Source: Rhodospirillales bacterium (GTDB lineage: Bacteria; Pseudomonadota; Alphaproteobacteria; SP197). Taken from it: a stretch of DNA of 64,000 nucleotides. The stretch spans positions 186,001 to 250,000 of the forward strand of contig JACONG010000010.1 in the NCBI GenBank assembly GCA_014323865.1. Reading direction: 5' to 3'. Positions 19,428 through 29,106 of the stretch are shown here, piece after piece. The translations under genes and the position numbers were made by a program. Positions within the stretch are counted from its first letter, which is position 1. Every line of letters starts with the position of its first letter. A model generated the notes under the pieces. It did no database searches. It was not told the origin of the DNA and worked only from the letters and a program-made list of their open reading frames with translations.

Positions 19428-19476
19428 CCGGCGCCGCGGATGACCCTCCGCGGCGTTGCTGTCCTGGAACCAAGCC

Positions 19477-22125
19477 ATGCTTGAAAAGACCTACGACGCC
19501 AACGGCGTCGAACAGAACCTTTATGAAGACTGGGACCGCGACGGCTCGTTCTCAATCGGCAGCCGTGACAACGCGCAGCCCTACACCATCGTCATTCCGC
19601 CGCCGAACGTCACCGGCAGCCTGCATATGGGCCATGCTCTCAACAACACGCTGCAGGACATCCTGATCCGCCACGAGCGCATGAAGGGGCGCGATGCGCT
19701 CTGGCAGCCGGGCATGGATCATGCCGGCATCGCGACGCAGATGGTGGTCGAGCGTCAGCTTGCCGAACAGGGTCTCGACCGGCGCGAAATGGGGCGGGAA
19801 GCCTTCATCGACAAGGTCTGGACCTGGAAGGGTGAGTCCGGCGGCCTGATCGGCCGGCAGCTTCGGCGCCTGGGTGCCTCGGCGGACTGGTCGCGCGAAC
19901 GCTTCACCATGGACGAGGGCCTGAGTGAGGCCGTGATCAAGGTCTTCGTCGACCTCTACGAAGCCGGCCTTATCTACAAGGACAAACGCCTGGTCAACTG
20001 GGATCCCAGGCTGTTGACCGCGATCTCCGATCTGGAAGTCCAGCAGCAGGAGGTGAAGGGCCATCTCTGGCACTTCCGCTACCCCGTCGAGGGCGAAGAC
20101 GGTCGTTTCATCACCGTCGCGACGACCCGGCCGGAGACGATGCTGGGCGATACTGCGGTGGCCGTGCACCCCGACGATGAGCGCTATCGCGACCTTGTCG
20201 GCAAACACGCCATTCTGCCGCTGGTCGGCCGCAGGATCGTGATCGTGGCTGATGAGTACGCTGACCCCGAACAGGGTTCCGGTGCGGTGAAGATCACGCC
20301 GGCGCACGATTTCAACGACTTCGAGGTCGGCAAGCGCCACAACCTCGAAATGATCAACATTCTGGATGCCGAAGCACGCATCAACGAGAACGCGCCCGCA
20401 GCCTACCGCGGCCTCGACCGTTTCGAGGCGCGCGAGCGTATCGTCGCCGACATGGAGGCCGACGGCTTTCTGGAGACGATCGACGAACATCTCCATCAGG
20501 TGCCGTTCGGGGACCGTGGCGGCGTGCCGATCGAGCCCTGGCTGACAGAGCAGTGGTATGCGGACGCCAGGACGCTGGCCGAACCTGCCATCAGGGCGGT
20601 CGAGGAGGGCAAGACCTGCTTCGTGCCAGAGAACTGGACCAGGACCTACTATGAGTGGATGCGCAACATTCAGCCCTGGTGCATCTCGCGCCAACTCTGG
20701 TGGGGCCACCAGATTCCCGCGTGGTACGGGCCCGACGGCGAGGTCTTTGTGGCGCATGACGAGGAGGCGGCACGGCTCAGGGCGCGCGAGCACTACGGCG
20801 AAGACGTTCCGCTGGAGCGTGACCCCGACGTGCTCGACACGTGGTTCTCGTCGGCGCTGTGGCCGTTCTCGACCCTCGGCTGGCCCGAGGACACTCCGGA
20901 ACTGCGCCGCTATTACCCGACCGATGTGCTGGTCACGGGCTTCGATATCATCTTCTTCTGGGTCGCCCGCATGATGATGATGGGACTTCACTTCATGAAA
21001 GAGGTGCCGTTCCACACCGTCTACATCCATGCGCTGGTGCGGGACGAGAAGGGCGCCAAGATGTCGAAGTCCAAGGGGAACATCATCGATCCCCTGGAAC
21101 TGATCGACGAGTACGGTGCCGACGCGCTGCGCTTCACGCTCTGCGCCATGGCGGTGCCCGGGCGTGACATCAAGCTCTCGAAGCAGCGTGTGGAGGGCTA
21201 TCGCAACTTCGGAACCAAGCTCTGGAATGCGGCGCGTTACTGCGAGATGAACGGCTGCGTTGCCGACAGCACGTTCGACCCGTCAACCTGCAGGGAGACC
21301 GTGAACCGCTGGATCGCGAGCGAGATGGCGCGGCTCCGCATCCGTCTCGATGTGGCGCTTGCGGCCTATCGCTTCAACGACGGTGCGCAGGCGGCCTATC
21401 AGGCAGCCTGGAACGTGTTCTGCGACTGGTACCTCGAGTTCACCAAGCCGATCCTCAACAGTGACGACGAGGCGGCTGCGGCCGAGACTCGTGCGGCGAC
21501 CGGTTGGGCTCTCGACCAGCTGCTGCTGATGCTGCATCCCATCATGCCCTTCATCACCGAGGAGCTGTGGCGTCAGCTGGACGGTCATCGCGAGACCAGG
21601 CTCATCCGCGCCGGTTGGCCCACCTATGGCGAGGAAGCGATCGACGTCGCAGCATCCAATGAGATGGACTGGATCGTCCGCCTGATCTCGCTGATCCGTA
21701 CGATCCGCGCTGAGGTCAACGTGCCGGCCGGTGCCAGGATCGTGGCGTTGCTCAAGGACGGTGGCGCGGAGGCCGAGGCTCGCATGGCACGCCACCGGGA
21801 CCTCATCCTGCGGCTGGCGCGTCTGGAGAGCATTGACCGCGCCAACACGACACCTGCGGGTTCGGCCCAAGCCGTGTTCGATGGTGCCACGCTCATCCTG
21901 CCGCTTGAAGACGTGATCGACATCGCGGCCGAGGTGACACGCTTGAAGAAGGCGATCGGCAAGGCCGACGGTGAGGTGGCCGGTCTCGGCAAGAAGCTCT
22001 CGAACGAGAAGTTCCTGGCCAATGCGCCCGACGAGGTCGTTGAGGAGAACCGGGAGCGTCTTGCTGCGGCGGAGCAGTCGCGCGACCGCTTGGCCGAGGC
22101 CCTGGCGCGGCTCGAGGCCGCCTGA
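19477..22125 (+). CDS. valS: Valyl-tRNA synthetase
   Basis: An 882-residue class I aminoacyl-tRNA synthetase that charges tRNA-Val. The HIGH-type signature is HMGH at residues 50-53 after PPNVTGSL, and KMSKS is at residues 528-532. The editing domain contains [17 protein letters not shown] near residue 215, and the C-terminal coiled-coil arm (residues about 815-882) typical of ValS is present. I start at the ATG at 19477, which gives the usual MLEKTYD opening; seven codons upstream is another ATG without support. It has its own promoter in the popZ tail and no obvious downstream partner. Confidence 0.96.
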
Positions 22126-22263
22126 GGCGCAGCCGTAAGGGCAGAGTATGGTGCGCCATGGCTGATACCAACGAACCGAAGGCCTCCGACGGCTGCGATC
22201 TCTCGCGTGTCTATGTGCTGTTGCCGCAGATGCGGCTTTACCCATCGGCTCGACATTGTGCGG

Positions 22264-22685
22264 GTCTGGGAGCCGTTCGTCATGCGCTTGACGATCCCCA
22301 ACTCCAGCCAAGGGCGTTGCCAGACAGATGCCTGGGGCTTGCGACGCAGCATAGGCGCGGGCGGGCGGGAGATCCGGCTCGATGAGATACCGGCCGACGA
22401 ACCGGTCGATCTGGTCCTCGGCGGTTCGTTCTGTTTCGCGGTTGGGGTGACGGCGACGGCAAGACCCTGCCCCCTCACATGGGCCAGATACCGAAAAGGC
22501 AGCAACCGCTCTACGGCCGGAAGAACGACGCGTTTTACCCACTGCGTCACAACGCGGAGAACCATGACGCCGAACGCGCCGAGTTCAATGCGTTGATCGA
22601 GAGCACCTTGAAGGCTTGGTCGCAGCACGCCGACGCCATCGGCGCCCGGCTGATCTGCTTCACCCAGACGACCGCGTTCACATGA
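22264..22685 (+). pseudogene. SGNH/GDSL hydrolase pseudogene
   Basis: Two overlapping frames spell part of an SGNH-family esterase. The first reads DAWGLRRSIGAGGREIRLDEI and then PVDLVLGGSFCFAVG, where SGNH proteins have LVLGGST-FGVGA with the catalytic serine; here the serine is kept but the block decays. A shift then leads to HMGQIPKRQQPLYG, AFYPLRHNAENHDAERAEF and ARLICFTQT. The N-terminus and the C-terminal DxxH catalytic pair are absent. The 22126-22849 gap contains nothing else recognised except the promoter at 22765. Confidence 0.55.
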
Positions 22686-22849: not shown

Positions 22850-23569
22850 ATGTCATCAAGCATTCTTTACGTCGTTCACAACCAGGCTTGGACGGACTGT
22901 CGCGTGGCCGAAGTCCTGCGCTCGCGCGGCCATACGATCGAATTCGTCTGCCCGGCCTTCGGCGATACCTTGCCGCCGGTCGACGGCTACACCGCCCTGG
23001 TGATCGGCGGCAGCGAGGACGGCCATGCTGCCCGGCCCGACGAACTGCAGTGGGTCGCCGACGAGATCGCCTACATCCGTGAGGCTGTCGACAAGGGTGT
23101 GCCGACCTATGGAATCTGCATGGGCGCGCAGCTCCTGGCCGCGGCCTACGACGGCAAGATCTGGGGCCGTCCTGACGAGCTGTGTGAACTCGGCTTCTAT
23201 CAGATCGACGCGACCGAAGCCGGACGCGACCTCTTCGAGGGCACCAGCCATTTCTACGAGGCACATTACGAAGGCATCTTCCGGCTGCCGGACAACGCTG
23301 TGCTGCTGGCGCGCGGAAACCAGTTTCCGGTGCAGGCGTTCCGCATTGGCGACCACGCTTACGGCACGCAGTTCCATCCCGATGTCGCGCTCGAAAAGCT
23401 GACCCGCGAGTTCCTGGAGAACGATCCCTACATCGACTTCTTTGGCGCTCAGAGCGTCGAGGAGCAGCTGCGTCTGGCCGCGGTCTATGAGGACTCGATC
23501 CAGGCCTGGACGGAACGGTTCATCGACACCTGGGTCGGTTCGGCTTGCAGCGAAGCGGAGGCGGCGTAA
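22850..23569 (+). CDS. Class I glutamine amidotransferase-like protein, first of a tandem pair
   Basis: A 239-residue stand-alone class I glutaminase fold. The nucleophile elbow is YGICMGAQLLA with Cys90, and the histidine is H176 in QFHPDV; the triad acid position reads D178 where classical enzymes have HPE. The N-terminus ILYVVHNQAWTDCRVAEVL is typical of the flavodoxin-like fold. There is no synthetase domain, so it must either act alone or supply ammonia to a separate partner. The C-terminal tail EEQLRLAAVYEDSIQAWTERF is shared with the next gene, which begins two bases after its stop. I cannot assign a substrate. Confidence 0.75.
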   Translation: MSSSILYVVHNQAWTDCRVAEVLRSRGHTIEFVCPAFGDTLPPVDGYTALVIGGSEDGHAARPDELQWVADEIAYIREAVDKGVPTYGICMGAQLLAAAYDGKIWGRPDELCELGFYQIDATEAGRDLFEGTSHFYEAHYEGIFRLPDNAVLLARGNQFPVQAFRIGDHAYGTQFHPDVALEKLTREFLENDPYIDFFGAQSVEEQLRLAAVYEDSIQAWTERFIDTWVGSACSEAEAA

Positions 23570-23571
23570 TC

Positions 23572-24294
23572 ATGATGTCCGATCGCATTCTCTATATCAT
23601 CCACCGCCGCGACTGGACCAGCACGCGCATCGCCGACGTCCTGGACACTCGGGGCTATGAGATCGATTTCCTGTGCCATGTCGATGGCGATCCCTTGCCT
23701 GAAGACGCATCGGCCTACGCCGGCGTTGTGATTGCCGGTGGTTGTGAGGGGTCAATGCGCCAGTCGGAGCGCTGGCCCTGGCTGATCCGTGAAATGGCCT
23801 GGGTGCGCAAGGTGGTCGAGCGCGGCGATCGTCCGGTCCTGGGCATGTGCCTCGGCGCTCAGCTGATTGCCATGGCGTTCGGCGGTGAGGGTGGCCCCCG
23901 TCCGGACGGCCTGATGGAACTCGGGTTCTATCCCCTGGAGCCGACCGCCGAGGGCGCGAGCCTGTTCTTCGGCCTCAGCCACATCTACCAGGCGCACTAC
24001 GAGGGCATCATGCACCTGCCCGAAGGCGCAACGCTGCTCGCTCGCAACGAGGCGTTCCCGGTTCAGGCATACGCCCTGGGCTCCGCAATCGGCCTGCAGG
24101 GACACCCCGATGCCAAGCACGCCGATCTCGAAGGTTGGTATGGCGACAACGACACGCAGCTCGGCCGTCCGGGCATCCAGAGCCTTCCGCAGCAGTTGCG
24201 CTTGTCTGCGTCCTACGAAGCCTCGATCCAGGCCTGGACCGAGCGCTTCATCGAGTGCTGGCTCGAGGGCGGAATCGTGCGGCTTGCGGCCTAG
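23572..24294 (+). CDS. Class I glutamine amidotransferase-like protein, second of a tandem pair
   Basis: A 240-residue paralogue of the preceding protein. It has the nucleophile loop LGMCLGAQLIAMAFGG with Cys93 and the histidine H178 in LQGHPDAKH, and the same tail (SASYEASIQAWTERF). The two differ widely over the rest, so the duplication is old. I start at the first ATG of an ATGATG, two bases after the upstream stop. Tandem similar subunits with conserved catalytic cysteines could form a heterodimer. Its TAG shares a CTAG tetranucleotide with the stop of the convergent amidinohydrolase-like gene. Function is unassigned. Confidence 0.75.
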   Translation: MMSDRILYIIHRRDWTSTRIADVLDTRGYEIDFLCHVDGDPLPEDASAYAGVVIAGGCEGSMRQSERWPWLIREMAWVRKVVERGDRPVLGMCLGAQLIAMAFGGEGGPRPDGLMELGFYPLEPTAEGASLFFGLSHIYQAHYEGIMHLPEGATLLARNEAFPVQAYALGSAIGLQGHPDAKHADLEGWYGDNDTQLGRPGIQSLPQQLRLSASYEASIQAWTERFIECWLEGGIVRLAA

Positions 24295-25157
24295 CTGTCG
24301 CGTTCCAGCGGTCGGGTCAGACAGGTCGGCCCGCCTTCACCCTTGCGGCTGATCTCGCTGCCGTCATAGGTCACGACCTCACAACCTGCGGTCTCCAGCC
24401 GACGACGGGTTTCGGGGTTGCCTTCGACCATCACGCAACGGCGCGGCGCGGTCGCGAGCACGTTGCAGCCCATGCTTTCGAACTCCTCGTCGGGCACTTC
24501 GACCAAGCAGAGCCCGCGTTCCAGCAACCAGTTGCGGAACGGCACGGGCATCAGCGGCGAATAGACAAGCGCAAGATCACGATCGAGCGGCGACAGAATT
24601 GACATCAGATGAAACACGTCCGATGGCCCCCTGAAGTGAGGTAGCGGGCAGACTTCGACGTGAACGTCCGCACCGAGCAGCGCGCGTAGTTGGCGAATGC
24701 CCTCGGCATTGGTGCGGTAGCCGCAGGCGACGGCGCAGGTCCTGTCATCGAGCCAGACGAAATCGCCACCCTCGATGTGGCCGTCGCCCGTGATGGTGCC
24801 AGCAATGGCAACACCCTGGCTGTCATAGACGCCGCCGTTGACACCGGGTTCGGCCTTGCGCGCAGGTTTGCCCATGTTGCAGTGGATCACACCCTTGGGC
24901 GAGGGGATCGACGCGTCCCGCACATAAATCGAATCGATCGACAGGCCGTCGCCGTGGGGCAGGAAATGGATATCGGCACCGGCAAGCGAGAGGACTTCGA
25001 CGAAACTGTCGTATTCGCGCAGGGCGGCGTCAAAGTCCGGCATGGCGTGATAGTTGAGACCCTGCCATTGGCCCGCGACTGTCATCGGATCGCGAAAGGC
25101 CTCGCGCGCGTGCCGCAGGCCGATGCGCGTGATGCGCCCGTATTCATTTATCGACAT
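24291..25157 (-). CDS. Dimethylarginine dimethylaminohydrolase / amidinotransferase-family protein
   Basis: A 288-residue member of the guanidine-modifying superfamily (DDAH, arginine deiminase, amidinotransferases). Motifs are SIYVRDASI near residue 75 (substrate-binding Asp), GHIEGGDFVWLD near 125 (Glu, Asp), SDVFHLMS near 178 (catalytic His) and GGPTCLTRPL at the C-terminus with nucleophile Cys279. Such enzymes hydrolyse or transfer the amidine group of arginine derivatives. The length fits DDAH-like hydrolases. It is convergent with the amidotransferase pair. I cannot distinguish methylarginine, arginine and agmatine-like substrates by sight. Confidence 0.75.
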   Translation of the reverse strand: MSINEYGRITRIGLRHAREAFRDPMTVAGQWQGLNYHAMPDFDAALREYDSFVEVLSLAGADIHFLPHGDGLSIDSIYVRDASIPSPKGVIHCNMGKPARKAEPGVNGGVYDSQGVAIAGTITGDGHIEGGDFVWLDDRTCAVACGYRTNAEGIRQLRALLGADVHVEVCPLPHFRGPSDVFHLMSILSPLDRDLALVYSPLMPVPFRNWLLERGLCLVEVPDEEFESMGCNVLATAPRRCVMVEGNPETRRRLETAGCEVVTYDGSEISRKGEGGPTCLTRPLERDS

Positions 25158-25199: not shown

Positions 25200-25406
25200 T
25201 CATATCCTGCGGCACCGAAGACGTTCGTGCCGTGCTGTGGCGTGAAGCGTCATCAGCACGAGCGGGATGATGTACTGCGTGAGTGCTCTCCAGCCGCCCG
25301 TCATGTCCTCGCCCTCGAGATAGCGTTGCGGCAACCCGTAGAGCCCGCAAAGCCCGGCTGCGAGCGCGACGCCGATCGAGATCGGGACGTGGTGGGCATG
25401 ACGCAT
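25200..25406 (-). CDS. Small hydrophobic protein, uncertain
   Basis: A 68-residue frame starting at the ATG at 25406 and ending 43 bases before the amidinohydrolase-like start, on the same strand. Two hydrophobic stretches are visible, ISIGVALAAGLCGLYGL and LTQYIIPLVLMTLH, so it could be a two-pass membrane protein. I recognise no family. A longer version starting at 25487 adds a cysteine- and proline-rich leader that looks non-coding. It may be a remnant. The remaining part of this gap, to 25551, holds the ilvD promoter. Confidence 0.3.
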   Translation of the reverse strand: MRHAHHVPISIGVALAAGLCGLYGLPQRYLEGEDMTGGWRALTQYIIPLVLMTLHATARHERLRCRRI

Positions 25407-25480
25407 GATTGGGCGGAAGCCGCACGGGAATGGAGCCGCTGCTTGGCACAACGGCAACGGCGAGGGGACCCGGGTGCAGC

Positions 25481-25551: not shown

Positions 25552-27270
25552 ATGACCCGTTGGGACAAGTCGAAACTGCCGAGCCGACACGTGTCGGTGG
25601 GACCGAAGAGTGCACCGCACAGGGCCTTCTACTACGCCATGGGCCTGACCGATGACGATGTGGCGCAGCCTTTCGTCGGTGTCGCCACAACCTGGAACGA
25701 AGCAGCACCCTGTAACATCACCCTGATGCGTCAGGCGCAGGCGGTGAAGAAGGGCGTGAAGGCTGCCGGTGGCACACCGCGCGAGTTCACGACCATCACG
25801 GTGACCGATGGCATCGCCATGGGCCATCACGGCATGAAGTCGTCACTGGTGAGCCGCGAAGTCATCGCTGACTCAGTTGAACTCACCATGCGCGGGCATT
25901 GCTACGATGGCCTTGTCGGTCTCGCGGGCTGCGACAAATCCCTGCCGGGCATGATGATGTCGATGGTGCGGCTCAACGTGCCGTCGGTCTTCATCTATGG
26001 CGGTTCGATCCTGCCCGGCAAGTTCCGCGGCAAGGACGTGACGATCATCGATGTCTTCGAGGCGGTCGGTGCAAACGCAGCCGGGAACATGTCCGACGAG
26101 GACCTCGGCATTGTCGAACACGCGGCATGTCCGTCGGGCGGCTCCTGCGGCGGTCAGTTCACGGCGAACACCATGGCGACGGTCTCCGAGGCGATCGGCC
26201 TGGCTCTGCCGTACTCGGCCTCGACGCCGGCACCCTACGAGAGCCGCGACGCCTTCTGCGAGCGCGCGGGGCACGCGGTGATGGAGCTGATCGGAAAGAG
26301 TATCCGTCCGCGCGACATCGTCACGCGCAAGGCGCTTGAGAATGCGGCGGTCGTCGTCGCGGCCTCGGGCGGTTCAACCAACGCGGGGCTGCATCTTCCC
26401 GCGATTGCGCATGAGGCCGGCATCGGGTTCACGCTCGACGAGGTCTGTGAGATCTTTCGCAAGACGCCCTACATCGCCGATCTCAAGCCGGGCGGCCGTT
26501 ACGTCGCCAAGGATCTCTACGAGGCCGGCGGCATCCCGATCCTGATCAAGGCGCTGCTGGATGGCGGCTATCTGCACGGCGACTGCCTGACGGTGACCGG
26601 AAAGACGCTGGCCGAGAATCATGCCGATGTGGTGTTCCCGGAGGACCAGGACGTCATCCGGCCGATCAGCAATCCGCTTTCGACAACGGGCGGCGTGGTC
26701 GGGCTGAAGGGCAACCTCGCACCGCAGGGCGGGATCGTGAAGATCGCCGGCATGAAAACCCTCCGGTTCCGCGGGCCTGCGCGCTGTTTCGACCGCGAGG
26801 AAGACTGCCTTGAGGCCGTGCTGCGCCAGGAATTCAACGAAGGTGATGTCCTGATCGTGCGCTACGAGGGCCCCAAGGGCGGCCCGGGCATGCGCGAGAT
26901 GCTCTCGACCACCAGCGCACTCTACGGCCAGGGCATGGGCGAAAAGGTCGCCCTCATCACGGATGGGCGGTTCTCGGGCGGAACGCGCGGCTTCTGTATC
27001 GGCCATGTTGGGCCGGAGGCGGCCGAGGGCGGCCCGATCGGCCTTCTCCAGAACGGTGACATGATCGTCATCGACGCCGAAAAGGGCACGCTCGATGTCG
27101 AGCTCTCCGACGAGGAACTGGCCGCGCGCAAGGCGGATTGGCAACCGCGCCAGACGGACTACAACGCCGGCACCATCTGGAAGTACGCCCAGACGGTCGG
27201 TCCGGCCCGTTTTGGCGCCGTGACCCATCCCGGTGGGCAGGGCGAAACGCACGTTTTCGCCGACCTCTAG
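25552..27270 (+). CDS. ilvD: Dihydroxy-acid dehydratase
   Basis: A 572-residue iron-sulfur dehydratase of branched-chain amino acid synthesis, converting 2,3-dihydroxy-3-methylacids to 2-oxo acids. Cluster cysteines are seen at Cys54 (EAAPCN), Cys127 (GCDKSLPG) and Cys199 (GGSCGGQF). The C-terminal swivelling domain contains TDGRFSGGTRGFCIGHVGPEA near residue 475. GGGAGA precedes the ATG. The length and these motifs fit IlvD rather than sugar-acid dehydratases, though that relative cannot be fully excluded by eye. It stands alone here, without ilvBHC. It is followed by a 560-base gene-free stretch containing a tandem repeat. Confidence 0.9.
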   Translation: MTRWDKSKLPSRHVSVGPKSAPHRAFYYAMGLTDDDVAQPFVGVATTWNEAAPCNITLMRQAQAVKKGVKAAGGTPREFTTITVTDGIAMGHHGMKSSLVSREVIADSVELTMRGHCYDGLVGLAGCDKSLPGMMMSMVRLNVPSVFIYGGSILPGKFRGKDVTIIDVFEAVGANAAGNMSDEDLGIVEHAACPSGGSCGGQFTANTMATVSEAIGLALPYSASTPAPYESRDAFCERAGHAVMELIGKSIRPRDIVTRKALENAAVVVAASGGSTNAGLHLPAIAHEAGIGFTLDEVCEIFRKTPYIADLKPGGRYVAKDLYEAGGIPILIKALLDGGYLHGDCLTVTGKTLAENHADVVFPEDQDVIRPISNPLSTTGGVVGLKGNLAPQGGIVKIAGMKTLRFRGPARCFDREEDCLEAVLRQEFNEGDVLIVRYEGPKGGPGMREMLSTTSALYGQGMGEKVALITDGRFSGGTRGFCIGHVGPEAAEGGPIGLLQNGDMIVIDAEKGTLDVELSDEELAARKADWQPRQTDYNAGTIWKYAQTVGPARFGAVTHPGGQGETHVFADL

Positions 27271-27518
27271 GTGTCGGTTGGCGTTCCGGGCGTCGGATCG
27301 CCGCATTGATCACGTCGGCAGCGTCGGCCCTTCAGGGGACGGAGTTCGCTCCAAACCCCCTCGAGTTCCGGCAATCTGTCATCGCAGCGGAACTATGGGA
27401 TGTTGTCGGCCATCGTGGTGTGAACGGTCGGCGGAAGGGTGGCCGGATCATCCAGGGTTGAGGTGCAGACATGAACCTCTCTCGGCCAGTCGCTGTCTTC
27501 GTAGGGGAGCGACGTTCC

Positions 27519-27717
27519 GCGCCTGCCGCCCAGTGAGGATACGTCATGGCGGGCGTTCCGGAGGTTCAGCGAAACTCTCCGGGCTTCAGATCGACGAAGG
27601 CCATAACAAGAGCGCCTGCCGCCCAGTGAGGATACGTCATGGCGGGCATTCCGGAGGTTCAGCGAAACTCTCCGGGCTTCAGATCGACGAAGGCCATAAC
27701 AAGAGCGCCTGCCGCCA
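27519..27717. repeat. 93-base tandem repeat, two full units and a partial third
   Basis: Units at 27519-27611 and 27612-27704 differ at one visible base (GGGCGTTCC against GGGCATTCC); a third begins at 27705 and stops after about 13 bases. Because 93 is divisible by three, frames run through: each unit carries on the reverse strand a 24-codon frame beginning MTYPHWAAGALV and ending DLKPGEFR, though the copy next to ilvD is broken. No RNA hairpin regularity is obvious. The surrounding 27271-27833 contains no gene I recognise. Confidence 0.92.
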
Positions 27718-27833
27718 TGTGGCAACTGCGACAGTGGCAGTTGTTGGTTTCGAAGGTCTCGGCCGACATCCGGTAGCGGATCGCACCGCAACATCGCCTG
27801 ATTGGATGTCACGAGAGGCTTGCGGGTTCGCGC

Positions 27834-28212
27834 TTACAGGGCATCAATGATTTCCATGGATTGCAGGGTGCCGCAGATCATCAAGATCGCTTCGGTCTCG
27901 GGCCGGCCAACCCCGGTACCGTACTCCAGCAGGTAGTCCGGCGTGACGCGCACCATGTCGACATCGTTTTCAATGTTGAGCGCCTGGATGTCCGGAATGT
28001 CGAAGCCCTGGGCGGCCACGTAGTGGGCCTCGATCCGGTTGACCTCGTCGGGATAAGGGGTTGCGACAACAATACGGGTCGCGCCGGGCGTCTTCAGCGC
28101 GCGCATCACACCGGTTATGAGGTATGTCGGCCTGGTTGCCCGGCGCTCCGCGTCCAGGTTCGGCAAAGACGACGCTCACGCCAATCATCACGCTCTCGAC
28201 CGTCTGCTCCAT
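27834..28212 (-). pseudogene. Truncated maleate-isomerase/Asp-Glu-racemase-like gene
   Basis: A 110-codon frame (27834-28166) that aligns with the middle and late part of the intact gene at 28330: ATRPTYLITGVMRAL, VVATPYPDEVNRIEAHYVA, IENDVDMVRVTPDYLLEYG and ILMICGTLQSMEIIDAL, where the second catalytic Cys sits in MICGT. It ends where the intact copy continues with the last 35 residues, and the N-terminal half with the first catalytic Cys is lost apart from SVMIGVS in another frame. The sequence differs substantially from its neighbour, so it is an old paralogue and not a recent duplicate. Confidence 0.65.
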
Positions 28213-28329
28213 AGCAAGCAGGGGGAACCCGATCGACGCGCGGTCGAATCAGCCGTTGTCGAAACGCGGCGAGCGCGGCTTCGATGCGGGCCAGACGGTC
28301 CCGGGCGTTGCGTCGCCGGGGTGCCAAAT

Positions 28330-29106
28330 TCAGTGTTCCCGATAAAGTCGCCCGAGCCCCTCGATCCTGTCGTTCACGCCTGCGAGCCGCATCATATGCC
28401 AGATCAGAGCCTGGTTGCTGGCCACGCAGGGTTTTCCGGTCTTCTGCTCGATTTCTTCAATCACCTCGACCGTGCGTAGTGCCGTGCAGGAGATGAAGAT
28501 GCCGTCCGCGTCGGGTCGATTGATCTCCAGTGCGAGTTTGACGAGGTCCTCGGGTTCGACCTGGCACATCTGACGGCCGGTCTCCAGGCACAGGCCCTGG
28601 ACGTCGAGAACCTCAAAGCCGCGATCGACCAGCCAGTCGGCCTCGAAATGGTTGACCTCATCAAGATAGGGGGTGCCGAGCACGACCTTTGTCATGCCGA
28701 GCGCCCGCATGGCCGCGATCACGCACGCTGCTACCGATGTGGCCCTGGCACCCGGCTGACCCTCGGACAACTTGCGCGCGACCTCGTCCTCACCGACGAC
28801 GACACTGCCGGACGTGCAGACATAGGCGACGGCGTCCATGTCTTCTGGCAGCAAGGCCGCGCAGGCTGGCAGGCGGTCACCGACAGCGGACAGGTTGGCA
28901 ACGTCAACAGGGTCATCGATGTGCACCCGTGTGTAGAAGACGCCGACGTCGCTGGGTACGATGTTGCGGATGTCGTCATCGGCCGTTTCTTCGTTGGTCA
29001 AAAGGACGAAACCAAGACGACCGCGCCTGTGCCTGCCCCTGCCGAGCGTCACAGAGCGCGGAGTGGACAAAGGCCATCCCTCGACCTTTTCGGGCAATGC
29101 TGCCAT
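28330..29106 (-). CDS. Maleate isomerase / arylmalonate decarboxylase-family protein
   Basis: A 258-residue Asp/Glu-racemase-fold protein. The two catalytic cysteines are in AYVCTSGSVVVG near residue 96 and IFISCTALRTVEV near 205, and VASNQALIWHMMRLAG near the C-terminus is typical of maleate isomerases. The family isomerises maleate to fumarate or decarboxylates arylmalonates by a cysteine-based mechanism. AAGGAGG lies six bases before the ATG at 29106. A degraded relative follows it. The presence of two paralogues and no other nicotinate-pathway gene means the substrate is open. Confidence 0.75.
   Translation of the reverse strand: MAALPEKVEGWPLSTPRSVTLGRGRHRRGRLGFVLLTNEETADDDIRNIVPSDVGVFYTRVHIDDPVDVANLSAVGDRLPACAALLPEDMDAVAYVCTSGSVVVGEDEVARKLSEGQPGARATSVAACVIAAMRALGMTKVVLGTPYLDEVNHFEADWLVDRGFEVLDVQGLCLETGRQMCQVEPEDLVKLALEINRPDADGIFISCTALRTVEVIEEIEQKTGKPCVASNQALIWHMMRLAGVNDRIEGLGRLYREH

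Follow-up and report, generated by a model that had tools for sequence, protein, structure and literature searches.

In the window analysed here, a 64,000-nucleotide stretch (contig C10, positions 186001-250000) of a 2.82 Mb genome, two tandem genes of the class I amidotransferase (GATase) fold, A and B, are faced by a gene for an amidinohydrolase, D. This arrangement raises the question of whether the three genes, which the initial annotation had treated as one functional set, serve a common pathway or only share an address. Altogether, we consider it likely that two independent, ordinary metabolic genes meet here at a conserved chromosomal address and that no dedicated pathway is involved. 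The integrity of the genes, their conserved residues, the predicted folds, the gene neighbourhoods and the clade structure were read from the data, and the substrates and reactions discussed below are predictions. The features of the locus are as follows.

19456-22125, plus strand: valS, valyl-tRNA synthetase, assigned by its own sequence and its conserved position; a TTG start is listed and the true start may be later
22152-22673, plus strand: decayed remnant, in tblastn fragments, of a gene for about 305 aa with no Pfam or NCBIfam match
22850-23569, plus strand: gene A, stand-alone class I GATase-fold protein of 239 aa with a PF00117 match
23572-24294, plus strand: gene B, paralogue of A, 240 aa, with Cys-His and HPD intact and a PF00117 match
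24291-25157, minus strand: gene D, guanidino-group-modifying (pentein) amidinohydrolase of 288 aa with PF02274 and PF19420 matches
25203-25409, minus strand: remnant of an EamA transporter gene, which relatives carry between D and ilvD
25552-27270, plus strand: ilvD, dihydroxy-acid dehydratase, which together with valS bounds the interval in which D lies
27789-29106: tandem EutA/arylmalonate-decarboxylase-like pair, with the intact copy at 28330-29106 on the minus strand

The layout described in the initial annotation was confirmed, with the ATG of B two bases past the stop of A and the stop codons of D and B overlapping by 4 bp as D converges on B. The family assignment of A and B also held, as both proteins scored above the PF00117 (GATase) cut-off of 22.8 bits in a Pfam search (A, 53.7; B, 38.5) and both carry the Cys and His motifs, read as GICMGAQ with Cys90 and QFHPD with His176 and Asp178 in A, and as GMCLGAQ and QGHPD in B. 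The absence of a synthetase domain was likewise borne out by the lack of any further Pfam domain in either protein; PF07722 (PuuD/Peptidase C26) matched A at 29 bits over a 36-residue stretch only, and did not match B. Both proteins fell below the equivalog cut-offs of PRK06490 (A 190 and B 180 bits, against 339) and PRK07053 (A 83 and B 109 bits, against 250). The two proteins are 46% identical to each other. The C-terminal tail that they had been said to share is real (70% identity over alignment positions 201-220) and corresponds to a C-terminal helix at residues 203-238 of the structural model of A, but it is not peculiar to the pair, as its pattern Q..W...F...W is also present in the aligned wider relatives.

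The replacement of HPE, found in most relatives, by HPD was observed throughout the 13 intact A/B proteins (11 A, 2 B) and in two relatives outside their clade (G107 and G293), so that the Asp-for-Glu change also occurs elsewhere. Activity is expected to be kept with Asp for Glu in the triad; the fixed HPD could mark an altered activity. The dN/dS ratios against relatives were about 0.24 for A, 0.13 for B and 0.10 for D, figures that are rough because dS is high, and values of about 0.1-0.3 indicate purifying selection on A, B and D alike.

Phylogenetic analysis united the 11 A proteins and the 2 B proteins in a single family-restricted clade (support 100/100), within which A (96/92) was separated from B (100/99). 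Given this supported split, B is a duplicate that arose early or diverged rapidly, and not a recent copy. A third group of paralogues (x group), which carries HPE and occurs across the family, fell outside the A/B clade; in this genome and in G015 its gene adjoins one that resembles a PLP-dependent threonine dehydratase. Searches of 385 genomes of the class and 399 of the phylum revealed no orthologue of A outside the family, and the class-level matches, at no more than 41% identity, were placed outside the A/B clade. A genome-contig scan with A as the query gave no relatives, and a literature search on GGP1-like bacterial GATases found nothing on the A/B clade. In the wider analysis of the locus, plasmid searches gave distant homologues only and a viral fold library gave no relevant match.

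The structural model of A (pLDDT 93) best matched 1o1y, 3m3p, DnfC (8khs, TM 0.84), MsGATase (7d54) and GGP1 (9k7i), the order of similarity being stand-alone GATases including DnfC, then plant GGP1, then PuuD and SpuA. With the stand-alone GATases of the PRK06490/PRK07053 type (TM1158, MsGATase and DnfC), A and B share the fold (TM 0.80-0.84), the length, the Cys and His and the lack of a synthetase domain, whereas they differ from these in falling below the PRK06490 cut-off, in having HPD instead of HPE and in forming a separate clade. DnfC has been found to hydrolyse glutamine and gamma-glutamyl hydroxamate (PMC11440038). A and B do not adjoin dnfAB. In plant GGP1 and bacterial PuuD/SpuA the same GATase fold serves as a gamma-glutamyl hydrolase, but the model of A is less similar to these (TM 0.72 to GGP1 and about 0.6 to PuuD and SpuA), identity is only 14-17%, and no gamma-glutamyl ligase gene lies beside A/B. 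Elsewhere in the genome there are about nine glutamine-synthetase-family genes, two of which have another GATase nearby, PuuD-like in one case and PRK07053-like in the other, so that the organism could plausibly carry out chemistry on gamma-glutamyl amides. The most likely role of A and B is the hydrolysis of gamma-glutamyl amides or of glutamine. Cys90 of A would attack the gamma-amide carbonyl, upon which the amine departs, and His176 and Asp178 would then assist the hydrolysis of the gamma-glutamyl thioester with release of glutamate.

For gene D, the description as an enzyme of the guanidine-hydrolysing type with Cys, His and acid motifs was upheld by the retention of E129, H183 and C279 and by the match to the arginine deiminase (ADI) family PF02274 at 75.4 bits, with a weaker match to DDAH_eukar (PF19420). 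The model of D (pLDDT 94) matches ADI and dimethylarginine dimethylaminohydrolase (DDAH) in fold, and the fold together with the Cys-His-Glu triad places D in the pentein superfamily. The best solved relatives by sequence are the structures of P. aeruginosa DDAH, with which D75, D81, R100, E129, R148, H183 and C279 of D align at positions 60, 66, 85, 114, 132, 162 and 249 of that enzyme, a numbering that was checked on the alignment with D; C279 was matched by its motif. All seven residues are invariant across 19 relatives of D. ADIs are proteins of about 410 aa with an extra helical domain, and D, at only 288 aa, is shorter and does not have this domain. The roles of the carboxylate-binding arginines, of the amine- and guanidino-binding aspartates and of the position that discriminates DDAH (Lys) from ADI (Asp) have been described (PMC11659421); R100 and R148 occupy the carboxylate-binding positions, and the specificity position, two residues past the catalytic His, is held by M185, a Met that is invariant in the 19 relatives. 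Thus D shares with DDAH and ADI the fold, the triad, the carboxylate-binding arginines and the substrate aspartates, but differs from both in having Met for the diagnostic Lys or Asp and in scoring below the cut-offs of both families, namely the dimethylargininase equivalogs (69 against 340 and 57 against 450 bits), and the ADI equivalogs (60-72 against 414-489 bits, arcA among them at 59.5 against 489 bits). It is also only about 25% identical to P. aeruginosa DDAH and has YVRD where that enzyme has FVED.

D would act in the manner of ADI or DDAH but is assigned to neither family, and it is probably an amidinohydrolase whose substrate is arginine or an N-substituted form of it. With an arginine-like amino acid bound by R100 and R148 at the carboxylate and by D81 and E129 at the guanidinium, Cys279 would attack the guanidinium carbon; ammonia or an amine would leave, and a water activated by His183 and Glu129 would free the ureido (citrulline-like) product.

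The distribution of these genes was compared across 16 genomes of the family, some of them fragmented, which is the only family of its order in the set. Orthologues of A were identified in 11 of the 16, always downstream of valS and on the same strand. In nine carriers A immediately follows valS, with a spacing of 107-155 bp in five and an overlap of 4 bp in four (L045, L046, L047 and L048), the latter suggesting translational coupling of a tRNA synthetase with a GATase-like gene. In the other two another reading frame separates valS from A; this is the gene for about 305 aa, decayed here and intact as one frame in G007 (L042, 10473-11390), and in G008 it sits between valS and D. Orthologues of B were limited to an intact copy in G012 and one broken by stops in G007. 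Orthologues of D, at 75-83% identity, were present in seven of the family genomes. Four genomes carried A and D, seven A only, three D only (G001, G002 and G008) and two neither, which is not a preferential co-occurrence (Fisher p=0.60).

Beyond the family, D is flanked by valS and ilvD, and A is missing from the locus, in a Kiloniellales MAG (L107, 62%) and in a genome of another family (L133, 55%). Four genomes from one more family have D close to genes for formate-tetrahydrofolate ligase and ABC transporters. Records of the named collection matched by D include MAGs labelled Rhodospirillaceae or Alphaproteobacteria. More distant homologues were found beside an amino-acid permease (L109, a Longimicrobiales MAG), beside a putative TetR-type regulator judged from its own sequence (L110, Marinomonas), beside ABC importer genes (L131) and divergent from an amino-acid-type ABC importer (L160, a Rhizobium plasmid). 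D is older and wider than A and a long resident of the valS-ilvD interval, and its contexts favour a role in importing and degrading an amino acid that resembles arginine.

These distributions bear directly on the proposal of a single pathway, in which A and B, perhaps as a heterodimer, would free a compound from glutamate and D would hydrolyse the guanidino group. The three genes are contiguous here, A, the broken B and D lie together in G007, all three stay intact while their neighbours decay (the DUF1989 and EamA genes are lost here), and DUF1989, MTTB and EamA genes occupy the same interval in relatives. Proteins associated with urea amidolyase are among the members of the DUF1989 family. 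Against this, A and D do not co-occur preferentially and are adjacent in only two genomes, this one and G007; A is found without D in seven genomes, and D without A in three as well as in other families; and A and B point toward D instead of being transcribed with it. When the neighbourhoods of A/B and D were compared across genomes, A and D were on different contigs in G012 and G013, where the neighbours of D are unrelated genes (amidase, GatB-like, Cys/Met-metabolism, rhomboid and glutathione-transferase), which counts against the functional set initially envisaged. The heterodimer was also weakened, as eight of the 11 carriers of A have no B and in a ninth (G007) B is broken; with B intact in two genomes and broken in a third, an obligate heterodimer is unlikely. 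Both readings keep a low probability, and we regard the common pathway as improbable. For none of A, B and D did a search identify clear orthology to a characterised single-function enzyme.

The alternatives concerning the individual enzymes were weighed on the same data. That A and B are true amidotransferase subunits, feeding ammonia in trans to a synthetase whose gene lies elsewhere, would agree with their intact Cys and His in a GATase fold, with the presence of GMP synthase GATase subunits among the sequence matches and with the tight linkage to another gene seen in the four valS overlaps. However, the only conserved partner of A is valS, which needs no ammonia, no other conserved synthetase-type gene adjoins A in any carrier, and the nearest structures are stand-alone proteins, so this role appears unlikely, if slightly less so than the common pathway. 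A stronger competitor, possible yet still doubtful, is that D is a true DDAH or ADI, given its nearest solved relatives by sequence and by fold and its carboxylate-binding arginines; the scores far below both sets of cut-offs, Met185 at the specificity position and the YVRD motif argue against it. Least probable of all, and very unlikely, is that the A/B clade with its fixed HPD has changed in specificity, with B as a regulatory or accessory partner in a new heteromeric gamma-glutamyl hydrolase, and that D hydrolyses an arginine derivative with release of a new type of leaving group. Under the preferred reading of independent genes at a conserved address, A and B are tandem paralogues in a clade of stand-alone class I GATases that is specific to the lineage, A being the copy retained within a valS-linked unit and B a diverged extra copy, missing or broken in most relatives.

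The genes surrounding the trio vary among relatives. The DUF1989 gene that relatives carry between D and ilvD is absent here, and the second EutA-like gene (27789-28320), intact in G007, G012 and G013, is frameshifted. A minus-strand frame at 27393-27812 contains a unit of about 30 residues twice in tandem and is possibly a non-coding repeat. A protein of about 694 aa, apparently secreted from a reading of its sequence and with no Pfam or NCBIfam match, is encoded near or beside ilvD in relatives (L091 3912-5996, L092, L094, L095 and L096) and is absent here. Additionally, an MTTB-type methyltransferase that scores below the cut-off of the Pyl-type equivalog adjoins ilvD in L094 (5838-7718), L095, L043 and L044, and in the last two a homocysteine S-methyltransferase also does so; the use of methylated compounds probably varies across the family. 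A pathway built from the DUF1989, MTTB, EamA, IlvD and EutA-like neighbours was weighed and set aside because ilvD, as the sole ILVD_EDD gene in the genome, is a housekeeping gene, the neighbour of about 694 aa has no match, DUF1989 gives 5-9 matches per genome in the family and the content of the interval is variable.

Altogether, A, B and D are real, intact and selected genes, each of an already known enzyme kind, and the set that they form is positional. D has long lain between valS and ilvD, with A/B directly past valS, and the trio illustrates that a striking grouping in one genome can arise from gene order and local gene decay. The locus also marks two uncharacterised subfamilies, a clade of HPD-type stand-alone GATases and a hydrolase resembling DDAH and ADI that carries Met at its specificity position.
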